From: Haloplanus natans DSM 17983
GTDB taxonomy: Archaea; Halobacteriota; Halobacteria; Halobacteriales; Haloferacaceae
Direction of reading: 5' to 3'
Assembly: GCF_000427685.1 (NCBI RefSeq)
Contig: NZ_KE386573.1
Location: forward strand, 558,001-622,000
Length of the DNA: 64,000 nt
Under the pieces are notes generated by a model. The model made no database searches. It saw nothing but the letters and a program-made list of their open reading frames with translations, and was not told the origin of the DNA. A program made the position numbers and the translations under genes. Positions 12,871-20,328 of this stretch are shown in pieces (the first letter of the stretch is position 1; each line of letters starts with the position of its first letter).

Positions 12871-13071
12871 CGCATACATTTGGGCATGGACGCATCACTC
12901 ACGGCTCCAGCCGGACCTGAATGCGACTACATCGAAATATACGAATCCGATCGCCAGATCTGTGTGCCCTATCAGTCGACCCCCCCGGGGGTTCGGAGGT
13001 TACTGGAGGTCGACGGAAATTACTTGAGCCAGGCAGCAGATATTGGGTCTGTGTGCCCGAAATTGGGCATG
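12871..13071 (+). promoter_or_regulatory. CRISPR leader
   Basis: This is the non-coding stretch directly before the first intact repeat. The opposite end of the array carries the decayed repeat, so the leader and the youngest spacers are on this side and transcription runs to the right. It has a moderately AT-rich part and, next to the array, a near-duplicated word (ATTGGGTCTGTGTGCCC and AAATTGGGCATG), which may serve as the promoter-proximal or integration motif. A short frame that crosses the leader into the first repeat is not considered a gene. Confidence 0.6.
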
Positions 13072-14607
13072 GTTACAGACGGACCCTTGTGGGGTTGAAG
13101 CATCTCAGCGTTACAGATGGCGTAGGCTCGCGACTCGGTTACAGACGGACCCTTGTGGGGTTGAAGCACCTAGCCTAATCAGTCTAATGCAATATGCACG
13201 TTCGTTACAGACGGACCCTTGTGGGGTTGAAGCTCGGTTCGAGATCGTGACGACAGCGCCCACGCGTGCGTTACAGACGGACCCTTGTGGGGTTGAAGCG
13301 ACGAGTCCTGCGACGGCAAGGCGATCCCCGACAGCGTTACAGACGGACCCTTGTGGGGTTGAAGCTTTGGCGACAACACGACGGTGAGGCGGTCCGATGA
13401 GTTACAGACGGACCCTTGTGGGGTTGAAGCTTCTAACCAATCATCTACGTCGGCTTCCCGCCAAGTTACAGACGGACCCTTGTGGGGTTGAAGCGAGGTA
13501 AAGTCGACGGTGAAGGCGTACGAGGGAGAGTTACAGACGGACCCTTGTGGGGTTGAAGCGTCGAGGAGGTCGTCCGCTTCCTGCGGCAGTGGCACGGTTA
13601 CAGACGGACCCTTGTGGGGTTGAAGCATCACGACATTGGCTGTGTAGACCGACGCGTCGGTTACAGACGGACCCTTGTGGGGTTGAAGCGCGACGGGCGC
13701 CACTATCGGATTCGCGTCCCGGAGGGGTTACAGACGGACCCTTGTGGGGTTGAAGCCGACCGCGAGTGGTGGGGGCAACTCCCGCGCTGGTGTTACAGAC
13801 GGACCCTTGTGGGGTTGAAGCCGGTCACGTCGACCCTCCTCCGAGCGTCGACTGATTGTTACAGACGGACCCTTGTGGGGTTGAAGCCGCACGAAGTCGG
13901 GCGCGCCGATCTCCTCCCAGAGCGTTACAGACGGACCCTTGTGGGGTTGAAGCCGTCTTCGACTGGTGCTCGCGTAGGTTGAACTCCTCGTTACAGACGG
14001 ACCCTTGTGGGGTTGAAGCAATCAGTTCGACGACGCGGTCCGCGTCGCCTTCGAGTTACAGACGGACCCTTGTGGGGTTGAAGCTCCGCGATGAGGATGT
14101 CCATGTCGTCGTACCCCTCGGTTACAGACGGACCCTTGTGGGGTTGAAGCGGTGTCGAGTCGTTGGGAGCCGTATCGTAGCCGTTGTTACAGACGGACCC
14201 TTGTGGGGTTGAAGCAGGACGCGATGAGCGATGGGGAACTCCCGTTTGACGTTACAGACGGACCCTTGTGGGGTTGAAGCACCCGGTTGTCGAGGTTTTC
14301 GAGGAACGCTCGAATCGTTACAGACGGACCCTTGTGGGGTTGAAGCGTCGGCACGAATCCCGAGTACGCGGATGTCCCAGCGTTACAGACGGACCCTTGT
14401 GGGGTTGAAGCGGCCTCGGCGCGCTGGCGGAGGTAGTCCTCGATATCGTTACAGACGGACCCTTGTGGGGTTGAAGCACGCTCGTCGAGCCACTCCATCA
14501 CCTTCGCGCGGGTTACAGACGGACCCTTGTGGGGTTGAAGCAGCGTCTCGCCGAAGCCGATCACGAGATCAAGTCCGGTTGCAGATGGACCCCGTCTCGA
14601 TCCGGGT
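13072..14607 (+). CRISPR. CRISPR array, 23 intact 30-bp repeats plus one decayed terminal repeat
   Basis: The repeats are identical, starting GTTACAGACG and ending GGGGTTGAAGC, 30 bases each. They begin at 13072, 13138, 13204, 13270, 13336, 13401, 13465, 13530, 13597, 13660, 13727, 13792, 13858, 13924, 13990, 14055, 14121, 14186, 14251, 14317, 14382, 14448 and 14512. The 23 spacers are 33-37 bases, mostly 35-36. A last copy at 14578 keeps only its first half (GTTGCAGATGGACCC) and marks the old end. The sequence is the haloarchaeal type I-B class, whose 8-base crRNA handle is the end of the repeat. No cas gene lies within the window, so processing and interference must depend on genes elsewhere. 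Several spacers read like conserved protein-coding DNA, as expected of viral targets. Confidence 0.97.
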
Positions 14608-17030: not shown

Positions 17031-18056
17031 ATGACCGAATCCACCTTCACACCGGAGGCGGCAATCGCCCACCTCCGGGCACGAGGTGTCGTCCCGCCCG
17101 ACGCAGACGCGACCGCCCGATCGCTCGGCGGCGGCGTCTCGAATCACGTCCATCAGGTCACCTGGGACGACGACTGCCTCGTCGTGAAGCGTCCGCTCCC
17201 GAACCTCGCCGTCGACGACGACTGGCCGGCCGATGTGGACCGCGTCCACAACGAAGCCGCGGCCATCCGTACCTACGGCGCCGTCCTCGACGACGCGGGC
17301 GTCGCGGCGCGTGTCCCCCGAGTCGTCAGCGAGACGGGCGACCCGGACCACGTCGTCGCCATCGAGTGTGCACCCGACGGGGCGGGAATGTGGAAGGCCG
17401 AACTGCTCGACGGCCGCGTCGACGCCGGCGTTGCGGCCGTCGTCGGCGAGGTACTCGGTGTCGTCCACGACGCCACGGCGACCGACGACGCGGTCCGGGA
17501 GCGCTTCGCCAGCAAGCGCCCTTTCGACCAGTTGCGCGTCGACCCCTACCACCGAACGACTGCGGAGCGCAACCCGGACGTGGCCGACGCCATCCACGAC
17601 GAAATCCGGCGTCTGCTGGACACCTCGCGGACGCTCGTCCACGGCGACTACAGTCCGAAGAACGTCCTCGTCGACCGGGCAAACGGCACGACGCCGTGGA
17701 TTCTCGACTTCGAGGTGGCCCACTGGGGCGACCCGGCCTTCGACACCGCGTTCATGCTCAACCACCTGTATATCAAGTCCATCCACAACCACGCACAGCA
17801 CGACGCCTACGCGGACGCCGCCGACCGGTTCTGGACGGCCTACGACGCCGCCGTCGGCTGGGACATCGAGCGCGAGACGGTCGCCGAACTCGCCGTCCTG
17901 ATGCTCGCACGCGTCGACGGCAAGTCGCCCGTCGAGTACGTCGACGGGACGGTTGCGAACGCCCTCCGCCGCGTCGCCAAACGCACCCTCCGTGGCGACG
18001 CCGAGACCCTGGCCGCGTTCGCGGGCCTCGCCCGCGAGGAGGCCGCGGCGCTATGA
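17031..18056 (+). CDS. Aminoglycoside-phosphotransferase-family small-molecule kinase
   Basis: This 341-residue protein has the APH/choline-kinase fold. Lys53 (CLVVKRPLP) is the ATP-binding lysine and Glu75 (HNEAAAIR) its partner. VHGDYSPKNVLVD carries the catalytic Asp206, and ILDFEVAHWGDPAFD the magnesium-binding Asp226. The family phosphorylates hydroxyl groups of small molecules such as choline, methylthioribose, homoserine and sugars. The substrate cannot be named from the motifs. Its stop codon overlaps the start of the enolase-like gene (ATGA), so both are made together. A kinase product feeding the enolase-like enzyme is the natural hypothesis. Antibiotic resistance is an unlikely role in this setting. 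Confidence 0.85.
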   Translation: MTESTFTPEAAIAHLRARGVVPPDADATARSLGGGVSNHVHQVTWDDDCLVVKRPLPNLAVDDDWPADVDRVHNEAAAIRTYGAVLDDAGVAARVPRVVSETGDPDHVVAIECAPDGAGMWKAELLDGRVDAGVAAVVGEVLGVVHDATATDDAVRERFASKRPFDQLRVDPYHRTTAERNPDVADAIHDEIRRLLDTSRTLVHGDYSPKNVLVDRANGTTPWILDFEVAHWGDPAFDTAFMLNHLYIKSIHNHAQHDAYADAADRFWTAYDAAVGWDIERETVAELAVLMLARVDGKSPVEYVDGTVANALRRVAKRTLRGDAETLAAFAGLAREEAAAL

Positions 18057-19339
18057 GGATCGACGCCGTCGACGCTTGGGAAGTCCTGGACTCGCGGGGC
18101 GACCCCACGGTCCGGGTTCGCGTGGATGCGGGCGACGCGAGCGGCACGTTCACCGTCCCCGCCGGGGCCAGTACGGGCGCTCACGAGGCGGTCGAGCGCC
18201 GCGACGGCGGCGACCGCTACGGCGGGCGGGGCGTGCGCGACGCCTGTGTGGCCGTCCGAAACGACCTCGCGTCCGCTGTCGAGGGGCGGCCGGTGACCGA
18301 TCAGGAAGGGATCGACGCGGCCCTCGTCGACCGCGACGGCACCGACGACCTCTCGACCCTCGGCGCCAACGCCGTCCTCGGGGTTTCGGGGGCTGTCGCT
18401 CACGCCGCCGCGGACGCGACGGGTCGCCCGCTCTACGAGGTGCTCGCGCCCGATTCGGGGTCGGGCGACCTGCCGATGCCCATGATCAACGTCCTGAGTG
18501 GCGGCCTCCACGCCGCGGCCGATCTGCCGATCCAGGACTTCCTCGCCGTGCCCGTCGGCGCCGGGACGTACCCCGACGCCCTCGAAACCGTGTGGGAGGT
18601 GCGGCGGGCGGCCGGCGCGCGCATCGGCGCGGAACGGCGTTCCGGGGGCGACCACCCGCCCGCCGTCGCCGACGAGGGAGGCTTCGTCCCGCCCGTCGCC
18701 GACGCGGACGCGGCCTTCGAGTTGCTGGTCGGCGCCATCCGCGACGCGGGCTACGACCCCGGCGACGAGGTCGCCATCGCCGTCGACGTGGCGGCGACCC
18801 ATTTCTACGACGCCGACGCCGACGGGTACGCGCTCGCCGGCGAGACGCTCGACCGGGCGGCGATGATCGACCGCGTCGTCGGCTGGATCGACGACTACCC
18901 CGTCCGCTCGGTCGAGGACCCCCTCGCGGAGGACGACTGGGCGGGCTGGGAACGGCTGGCCGACCGCGTCGGCGACCGGGTGCAGTTGCTCGGCGACGAT
19001 CTGCTGGCGACGAACGCCGACCGGCTGGACCGAGCCGTCGCGTCGGGCGCCGCCAACGCCGCCCTCGTCAAGCCGAATCAGGCGGGGACGATCACGCGTA
19101 CGCGTCGCGTCCTCGAGGCGGCTCAGGACGCGGACTGGGCGCCCGTCGTCTCCGCGCGCTCCGGCGAGACCTGCGACTGGACCATCGCGGATCTGGCCGT
19201 CGCCCTCGACGCCGGACAGATCAAGATCGGCTCGCTCGCCCGGTCGGAACGCCTCGCGAAGTACAACCGCTTGCTCGGCATCGACCGCGCCTCAGACGGC
19301 GGGTTCGCCGGTGAGGCGGCGCTGGCGCCGCGCGAGTAA
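18053..19339 (+). CDS. Divergent enolase-superfamily paralogue
   Basis: This is a 428-residue protein of full enolase length. It retains the metal ligands (Asp245 in AVDVAATHFYD, Glu288 in SVEDPLAEDDW, Asp315 in QLLGDDLLATN), the acid Glu208 (VADEGGF), the base Lys340 (LVKPNQAGTITRT) and Lys391 (GQIKIGSLARSERLAKYN). However, the residue matching yeast Glu168 is Asp162 (PIQDFLAV) and that matching His373 is Ala368 (VSARSGET, normally SHRSGET). The loop around His153 reads GGLHAAAD. Canonical haloarchaeal enolase normally sits in the rpsB ribosomal cluster, so this is probably a second, specialised copy acting on a modified phosphorylated acid, or a weak enolase. The start is fixed by the ATGA overlap with the kinase. 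Confidence 0.85.
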   Translation: MRIDAVDAWEVLDSRGDPTVRVRVDAGDASGTFTVPAGASTGAHEAVERRDGGDRYGGRGVRDACVAVRNDLASAVEGRPVTDQEGIDAALVDRDGTDDLSTLGANAVLGVSGAVAHAAADATGRPLYEVLAPDSGSGDLPMPMINVLSGGLHAAADLPIQDFLAVPVGAGTYPDALETVWEVRRAAGARIGAERRSGGDHPPAVADEGGFVPPVADADAAFELLVGAIRDAGYDPGDEVAIAVDVAATHFYDADADGYALAGETLDRAAMIDRVVGWIDDYPVRSVEDPLAEDDWAGWERLADRVGDRVQLLGDDLLATNADRLDRAVASGAANAALVKPNQAGTITRTRRVLEAAQDADWAPVVSARSGETCDWTIADLAVALDAGQIKIGSLARSERLAKYNRLLGIDRASDGGFAGEAALAPRE

Positions 19340-19554: not shown

Positions 19555-20328
19555 ATGAACGTCGCCGAGCGCGTCCACGTGATGCCGCTGGGGTTCGAGC
19601 ACGACCGGATCGTCGAGCCGGCCGTCGAGTACCGCGCGGATCGGGTGATCCTCTTGGACTGGATCGCGGACGATATCGACCGCCCGTCGTACCACGACGA
19701 CGTGTTCGCCGATCTGTCGGCGGCGGGCATCGACACGGAGCGGCGGGACTGCCGGCTGTTCGATCTCTATGACTCCATCGGGGTCATCGCCGACATCGTG
19801 ACCGCGGAGGCGACGCCGGACGACGACGCCGACGTCGCCAACGAGGTGTACGTGAATCTCGCGACCGGGAGTAAGATCACCGCCATCGGCGGGATGATCG
19901 CCTGCATGGTGACCGGCGCCGCCAGCCCCTACTACGTCCGGGCCGAACGCTACGCGTCGGGGGCGGAGCCGGTCGGCTACGGGATGGAACTCGCCATCGA
20001 TCTGCCGACGTATCCGATGGACTGCCCGGACCGCCAACAGGTCGCCGTTCTCGACCGGGTGGTCGAAGCCGGACCACAGTCGAAAAAGGGGCTGATCCGC
20101 TTCGGCGCCGACCGCGACCTTCCATTCATCCGCGACTGTGACCGTCCGTTCGACGCCGCGGGCAAGCCGACCAAGCAGTCCTACGCGCGGCTCCGCCGAC
20201 ACGTCGTCGATCCGCTCGCCGACCGCGGGTTCGTCGCCGTCGAGTCCGTCGGCACGACGCGCCAGGTTCGGGCGACCGAAGCCGGCCGGAACGCCCGTAC
20301 GGCCTTCGCGTTCCTACTCGACGGCTAG
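19555..20328 (+). CDS. CARF-like/winged-helix regulator (HFX_2341, DUF6293 type)
   Basis: This is a 257-residue protein. Residues 1-150 form a Rossmann-like domain that begins RVHVMPLGFEHDRIVEP and contains NLATGSKITAIGGMIACM at 101-118. That corresponds to the N-x-T-G-G/S-K ligand loop of CARF domains, which sense cyclic oligoadenylates in CRISPR systems. The C-terminal 85 residues are a winged helix (KPTKQSYARLRRHVVDPLAD, then VRATEAGR). The layout matches the haloarchaeal HFX_2341-type regulators. It lies 5 kb from an array without nearby cas genes. Whether it senses a CRISPR signal or a metabolite is unknown. Its stop codon overlaps that of the converging gene in a shared CTAG. Confidence 0.75.
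   Translation: MNVAERVHVMPLGFEHDRIVEPAVEYRADRVILLDWIADDIDRPSYHDDVFADLSAAGIDTERRDCRLFDLYDSIGVIADIVTAEATPDDDADVANEVYVNLATGSKITAIGGMIACMVTGAASPYYVRAERYASGAEPVGYGMELAIDLPTYPMDCPDRQQVAVLDRVVEAGPQSKKGLIRFGADRDLPFIRDCDRPFDAAGKPTKQSYARLRRHVVDPLADRGFVAVESVGTTRQVRATEAGRNARTAFAFLLDG

Follow-up and report, generated by a model that had tools for sequence, protein, structure and literature searches.

The window analysed here, a stretch of 64,000 nucleotides from the haloarchaeon Haloplanus natans DSM 17983 (contig NZ_KE386573.1, positions 558,001 to 622,000), contains two overlapping genes: the first encodes a small-molecule kinase of the APH fold (P0002), the second an enolase paralog with altered active-site residues (P0001). 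P0001 belongs to a distinct enolase subfamily, named V in this report, which apparently has an obligate kinase partner and, frequently, also a dehydrogenase partner; in haloarchaea and in several bacterial phyla, V enolases are found together with APH-fold kinases of a single clade. The observation holds up, and the pair is conserved but under-annotated. We favour, with a probability of about 55%, a reading in which the kinase and the V enolase catalyze consecutive steps on a 2,3-dihydroxy acid, the substrate being probably larger than glycerate.

The V subfamily of enolases

P0001 is an enolase by its Pfam domains (Table 1) and scores above the equivalog cut-off of TIGR01060, phosphopyruvate hydratase (442.3 versus 300 bits). 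In the alignment it retains the metal ligands Asp245, Glu288 and Asp315, the base Lys340 and the acid Glu208, in agreement with a previous sequence-only reading of this DNA. That reading had also reported Asp and Ala in place of the canonical Glu168 and His373 (human/yeast numbering), which are replaced by Asp162 and Ala368; it had missed a third change, from Gly to Ala at position 206, two residues ahead of the acid Glu208. In canonical enolase, according to the literature, Lys345 acts as the base and Glu211 as the acid (PMC4450660), the equivalents of Glu168 and Glu211 contact the hydroxyl of 2-phosphoglycerate (PMC4667285), and His159, Glu168, Glu211, Lys345 and Lys396 are listed as key residues (PMC4356359).

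A tree was built from 88 rows, after exclusion of enolases shorter than 380 residues and of near-copies: 53 V enolases, 23 canonical ones, 11 enolases of a third type described below and a single Enterobacter plasmid copy. A branch with support of 100/99 splits the canonical and third-type enolases from all V rows; the Enterobacter copy forms a very long branch and its placement is unsure. L101 was classed as canonical from the QEF motif alone, its second motif being unmatched. At the thresholds used, V and canonical enolases are told apart by three columns only, corresponding to Asp162 (Glu in the canonical proteins), Ala206 (Gly) and Ala368 (His) of P0001, and each of them holds in all 53 V and all 23 canonical sequences. 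Conversely, the base, the acid, the metal ligands, Ser40, His153, Arg369, Ser370 and Lys391 are invariant across the 53 V enolases.

The two groups have in common the fold (TIGR01060, PF00113/PF03952), the Mg ligands, Lys345, Glu211, Arg374/Ser375 and the lid Ser39, while V is set apart by the fixed substitutions E168D, G209A and H373A, by its own branch and by the APH-fold kinase partner. Here we take the changed Gly and His to be residues 209 and 373 of the canonical enzyme, and we assume that His373 is close to the leaving hydroxyl; the altered Gly209 and His373 positions would both lie near that group. The V pattern, in which the phosphate and carboxylate ends are retained and the leaving-group end is altered, suggests a change either in the C3 substituent or in the leaving group.

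Recurrence of the pair

When 84,980 species genomes were scanned with the kinase as the query, 34 loci were returned. An enolase frame is present in 30 of them, with none within the examined stretch at L048, L053, L068 and L079; the record titles of the loci with an enolase name Chloroflexi, Actinobacteria, Acidobacteria, Planctomycetota and Proteobacteria, and plasmid records supplied further annotated pair loci. The kinase is found in the same locus for 51 of the 53 distinct V enolases, most of which were reached via the kinase. It comes first with a 4-nucleotide overlap in 36 cases and first with another spacing in 9, it follows the enolase in 4, and in 2 (Rhizobium) the genes lie on opposite strands. 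For the remaining two V enolases the kinase is elsewhere in the genome (L142 in G309; L122 in G153, the genome of the kinase locus L053).

Searches seeded with the enolase gave the same picture outside Halobacteria, where a kinase lies near the V enolase in 7/7 cases: L176, L177 and L178, identified by pattern search, and L180, L181, L184 and L185, identified by tblastn of P0001 against plasmids, the records of these last four being also among the kinase-seeded plasmid matches. The two canonical enolases from the same enolase search, L182 and L183, have no such kinase (0/2). V enolases are rare: a strict pattern finds them in 3 of 321 genomes from the class to which Paraburkholderia belongs. 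The recurrence in haloarchaea and bacteria, including the enolase-seeded checks, rules out a chance pairing within one lineage; the sequence-only reading had asked whether the pairing is conserved, and it is, in two domains of life. The tblastn search also matched 1119 plasmid records in all, 683 of them from Escherichia; many of the matches are partial, with coverage of at least 80% in 334.

Within the haloarchaea, the window-type enolase was found at 79-100% identity in 7 of 12 genomes of the genus, with only enolase fragments in G009. Close kinase matches among 148 genomes of the family are limited to those seven and G036, G083, G060 and G050, and in 11/11 of them the start of the enolase overlaps the stop of the kinase; nine further kinase-matched genomes are weak (E 1e-5 or worse). 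Among 292 Halobacteria genomes, the kinase is found at E <= 1e-20 in 8. A check of the same genomes that was not seeded with the kinase used the SARSGET DNA pattern, which occurs at 31 places in 29 genomes; of the 30 places retrieved, 9 are in an enolase frame and 21 are not enolases. The SARSGET enolases belong to the same 8 kinase genomes, plus the G009 remnant without a kinase. In G309 the V enolase (L142) and the kinase are both present on the same contig, 28 kb apart.

The G009 locus (L174:4937-5356) is syntenic with the window and contains a decayed V enolase, the kinase having been lost, so that kinase and V enolase seem to go together. A second kinase copy was observed in G001 (L173:3798-6370), broken by an IS200/IS605-like element encoding a TnpB-type protein (Pfam Cas12f1-like TNB), near fructose-bisphosphatase-like and aldolase-like genes.

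The kinase

P0002 matches PF01636 (APH) well above the cut-off of 23.2 bits (Table 1) and contains the HGDxxxxN loop; its D226-F-E228 is presumably the metal-binding DxE motif. Its Pfam matches are limited to APH, TCAD9 and EcKL, and the DUF4147/MOFRL domains of class II glycerate kinases were not found in it by Pfam. In an AlphaFold2 (AF2) model built with 11 sequences (mean predicted local distance difference test score, pLDDT, 85.4) the nearest solved structures are methylthioribose kinases, with Z of about 31 over about 320 residues, followed by PsiK (Z 27) and LxmK (Z 22); at the sequence level there is a weak match to 2olc (E 5e-7). The likeness is one of fold and leaves the substrate unspecified. 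P0002 has about 16% identity with 5-methylthioribose kinase (MtnK) and falls under the TIGR01767 cut-off (40.8 versus 275 bits); no mtn-type methionine-salvage genes were noticed in the contexts inspected, and a role in methionine salvage was dropped.

Other systems resemble the pair in part. The LxmKY lexapeptide dehydratase, judging from the title of its structure entry, uses this kinase fold in a two-part dehydratase complex; we take it to differ in having a peptide substrate and an unrelated lyase. In ACAD10/ACAD11, as described in PMC11342911, a kinase domain activates a hydroxyl before elimination, but the substrate is a 4-hydroxyacyl-CoA, the phosphate is expelled via an acyl-CoA dehydrogenase domain and no enolase is involved; no ACAD domain was found by Pfam in either window protein, and the partner of the kinase is an enolase. 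Finally, a glycerate 2-kinase (MOFRL or class I) and an enolase together convert a hydroxy acid to its 2-phospho form and then to an enol phosphate (PMC2063504); however, the enolase adjoining a MOFRL kinase remains canonical in Paraburkholderia, and P0002 is without MOFRL/DUF4147. Bacterial LvaA-type proteins presumably form a system similar to ACAD10/11.

Dehydrogenase partner and gene neighbourhoods

Gene contents were compared in 40 neighbourhoods, in which several gene calls are approximate picks of open reading frames and names without Pfam or NCBIfam support were recognised by eye. Since the reference proteins were drawn from the same loci, the counts indicate presence and not enrichment. 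A 2-hydroxyacid dehydrogenase, missed by the sequence-only reading, is present in 15/40 neighbourhoods. At L073 (Paraburkholderia) and L074 a D-2-hydroxyacid dehydrogenase forms, by Pfam, the N-terminal half and the kinase the C-terminal half of one protein; a dehydrogenase lies within the open frame of the kinase also at L070, L075 and L076. The sequence-only reading had described the window genes as fused by overlap: the 4-nucleotide ATGA start/stop overlap is there, but it is translational only, and at the loci examined the real protein fusions join the kinase to the dehydrogenase and never to the enolase.

The other recurrent neighbours are FAH-family hydrolases (17/40), cupins (12/40), VOC-type extradiol dioxygenases (8/40), mandelate-racemase-type dehydratases (5/40) and phosphoenolpyruvate (PEP) carboxylase (3/40). 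None of these, nor the dehydrogenase, was found within the stretch of the window examined. The PEP carboxylase of the Rhizobium cluster is genuine (1124.9 bits, cut-off 815); the dioxygenase is HpaD-like, below cut-off. A PEP carboxylase match also occurs in Pararhizobium. Haloarchaeal clusters contain sugar-acid dehydratases, HpcH/GarL-like aldolases and TRAP or ABC transporters, the GarL/HpaI-like aldolases scoring below cut-off, and a Rhodococcus cluster contains a syringate/vanillate O-demethylase-like gene, also below cut-off. Several actinobacterial, acidobacterial and haloarchaeal pairs are without obvious pathway neighbours; the pathway contexts that can be recognised are mostly those of sugar-acid, hydroxy-acid or aromatic-acid catabolism.

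Proposed reaction sequence and its alternatives

The sequence-only reading had suggested a two-step route in which the kinase phosphorylates a hydroxy acid or sugar acid that the enolase-like enzyme then dehydrates, a suggestion that is supported in part. From the residues and the gene contexts we infer the following scheme. The D-2-hydroxyacid dehydrogenase, found in many genomes, would supply the kinase with its substrate through reduction of a 2-oxo(-3-hydroxy) acid; the kinase would phosphorylate the 2-hydroxyl of the resulting 2,3-dihydroxy acid, a sugar-acid-like compound; and the V enolase, in which the binding sites for carboxylate, metal and phosphate are kept together with the base and the acid, would remove water across C2-C3 of the 2-phospho acid, giving an enol phosphate homologous to PEP. 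The altered residues near the leaving hydroxyl most likely accommodate a substituent on C3, so that the substrate probably exceeds glycerate in size (at least C4).

The alternative that survives best, although we regard it as unlikely, is a plain D-glycerate route, in which the kinase would be a glycerate 2-kinase of a fourth class, unrelated to the others, the V enolase a dedicated 2-phosphoglycerate dehydratase producing PEP, and the dehydrogenase a hydroxypyruvate reductase. The PEP carboxylases of Rhizobium and Pararhizobium would fit such a route; the GarL/HpaI-like aldolases of the haloarchaeal clusters would provide tartronate semialdehyde; the standalone pairs of several lineages would need central metabolites only; and P0001 does score above the enolase equivalog cut-off. 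However, this route exists already in most carriers of the pair. A MOFRL-type glycerate kinase, belonging to a known glycerate 2-kinase class (PMC2063504), is also present in 19 of 23 carrier genomes checked, and a further PF00113 match is found in 21 of the 23, a full-length canonical copy being seen in 15 of these. In the Paraburkholderia genome G166, itself a carrier of the V pair, an operon (L187:31-3879) includes a MOFRL glycerate kinase, a pyruvate kinase and an enolase and is a ready-made glycerate-to-pyruvate unit; its enolase is wholly canonical, with the motifs QEF, GDEGG and SHRSGET. Because of the MOFRL kinase in 19/23 carriers and of the canonical enolase in the G166 operon, a C3-substituted 2,3-dihydroxy acid is preferred; moreover, the D-glycerate route leaves the three fixed changes on the leaving-group side unexplained.

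A further possibility, which we consider poorly likely, is that the leaving group is different: the phosphate of the kinase product would be at C2 or C3, and the group expelled by the V enolase would be this phosphate, sulfite, an amine or an alkoxide instead of hydroxide, the expulsion of phosphate being comparable to that in ACAD10/11. All three V changes are at the leaving-group side or would be near it, and a kinase step followed by elimination is known for related kinase domains (PMC11342911; LxmK, Z 22, is a dehydratase kinase by its entry title). Against it, the residues for the C2 phosphate and the second metal (Ser40, Arg369 and Ser370) and the acid Glu208 are intact in V, and therefore fit a retained C2 phosphate and the protonation of a poor leaving group.

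It is improbable that V enolases are catalytically weak or moonlighting proteins and that the pairing reflects regulation instead of consecutive steps: the loss of Glu168 and His373 is expected to lower 2-phosphoglycerate turnover (as reported mutants of His373 would suggest), but the acid, base, metal and phosphate ligands are invariant in 53/53, the co-occurrence persists where the genes are unlinked, and a dehydrogenase is linked as well. An ordinary duplicate enolase for tolerance to an inhibitor such as fluoride, with an unrelated kinase, was rejected as most improbable, since extra enolases on plasmids do accompany fluoride exporters but keep the canonical QEF and SHRSGET motifs without a phosphotransferase annotated beside any of them, and since the kinase pairing of V is fixed.

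Some observations weigh against consecutive steps on a larger dihydroxy acid. The dehydrogenase was undetected in 25/40 neighbourhoods, the window included; the PEP carboxylase of Rhizobium hints at PEP itself as the product, that is, at a C3 substrate; and in two metagenome-assembled genomes the V enolase is the only enolase found. One common substrate is not obvious, because the contexts differ by lineage, from sugar-acid islands to ring-cleavage-like operons to none, as in the window. The pairing itself is supported by the co-divergence of kinase and V enolase (r = 0.92, n = 49, 0/2000 permutations), a mirror-tree value which still includes shared species history.

Other enolases and features of the window

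The genome of Haloplanus natans (G000) contains three enolases, and the idea that P0001 is its sole enolase was rejected. The canonical enolase (L003; motifs QEF and SHRSGET), the existence of which the sequence-only reading had proposed to check, adjoins ribosomal proteins; the window enolase has the motifs QDF and SARSGET; and a third paralog (L001; QEH and SERSGQT) adjoins a MOFRL-type kinase. The latter represents a second, independent kinase-enolase pair, as this third enolase type lies beside a DUF4147/MOFRL kinase in 12/12 loci examined: L001:137-2745 (G000:C7 about 2956550-2959160), L011-L014, L016, L018-L021, L113 and L188. In all 11 distinct rows it has a GRSRG lid and the changes His159 to Leu, His373 to Glu and Glu377 to Gln; the extra lid arginines suggest a more acidic substrate.

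A cluster on an Enterobacter chuandaensis plasmid (L085:8193-20873) includes a very divergent enolase-like protein annotated as hypothetical, an APH kinase and a 2-hydroxyacid dehydrogenase, together with aminotransferase, U32-like, MFS and nucleotidyltransferase genes, and looks biosynthetic; in its counterpart L186 the phosphotransferase gene is shortened beside an IS1 transposase. Plasmids of Massilia and Burkholderia (L093:2623-8456 and L094:2902-7293) carry additional enolases of the canonical kind, accompanied by genes for a pyrophosphatase, DUF190, a chloride channel or the fluoride exporter CrcB, as fluoride tolerance predicts.

The coordinates of the window pair are collected in Table 1. 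Just upstream (window 13049-14541) there is an array resembling clustered regularly interspaced short palindromic repeats (CRISPR), with 23 repeat copies containing GTTACAGACGGACCCTTGTGGGGTTGAAGC at a spacing of 63-67 nucleotides. Just downstream of the enolase (19555-20328) there is an HFX_2341-like/DUF6293 protein with a winged-helix domain.

Table 1. Positions in the window of the kinase-enolase pair and of its diagnostic residues.
Feature	Position	Strand	Basis
P0002, small-molecule kinase of the APH/methylthioribose-kinase fold, 341 residues	17031..18056	+	Open reading frame (ORF), translation, PF01636 68.5 bits, AF2 model
Kinase catalytic loop H204-G-D206-YSPK-N211	17640..17663	+	H204, G205, D206, N211 invariant across 11 aligned kinases
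Kinase D226-F-E228 (DxE)	17706..17714	+	D226, E228 invariant across 11 aligned kinases
ATGA overlap (4 nucleotides), kinase stop/enolase start	18053..18056	+	Same -3 offset (ATGA or GTGA) at 36/53 V-enolase loci
P0001, V-type enolase paralog, 428 residues	18053..19339	+	Enolase_C (PF00113) 268 bits, Enolase_N (PF03952) 140 bits, tree
Asp162 codon, Glu168 position	18536..18538	+	D in 53/53 V, E in 23/23 canonical
Ala206 codon, canonical Gly (GDEGG to ADEGG)	18668..18670	+	A in 53/53 V, G in 23/23 canonical
Glu208 codon, general acid Glu211, retained	18674..18676	+	Alignment; acid role from PMC4450660
Lys340 codon, general base Lys345, retained	19070..19072	+	Alignment; base role from PMC4450660
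Ala368 codon, His373 position	19154..19156	+	A in 53/53 V, H in 23/23 canonical

Significance for enolase annotation and metabolism

Enolase is regarded as a single reaction: P0001 scores above the NCBI equivalog cut-off, and its relatives are annotated as 'eno, phosphopyruvate hydratase' in plasmid records. Because the same pair recurs in distant bacteria, automatic annotation probably names the wrong reaction for V enolases, and a two- or three-step pathway not yet described may lie behind it; the sequence-only reading knew of no described pathway with this pair, and no description of the kinase-V enolase pair or of such a pathway was found in the open-licence PMC literature searched. Should V enolases act as dehydratases of another compound, this gene would be misassigned in many genome annotations and metabolic models, the three-residue signature could be used to correct these, and a new route for sugar acids or acids of aromatic origin, passing through a PEP-like intermediate, would become testable. 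Should the substrate be glycerate, P0002 would fall outside the three glycerate kinase classes described in 2007 (PMC2063504). More tentatively, and at somewhat less than even odds, archaea and bacteria may share a hitherto undescribed ATP-dependent dehydroxylation pathway, in which a 3-hydroxy-2-oxo acid would be reduced, phosphorylated on C2 by the APH-fold kinase and dehydrated by an enolase specific for the C3 substituent, yielding a homologue of PEP as a high-energy intermediate; such a pathway would represent a branch of the enolase subgroup with a substrate other than 2-phosphoglycerate.

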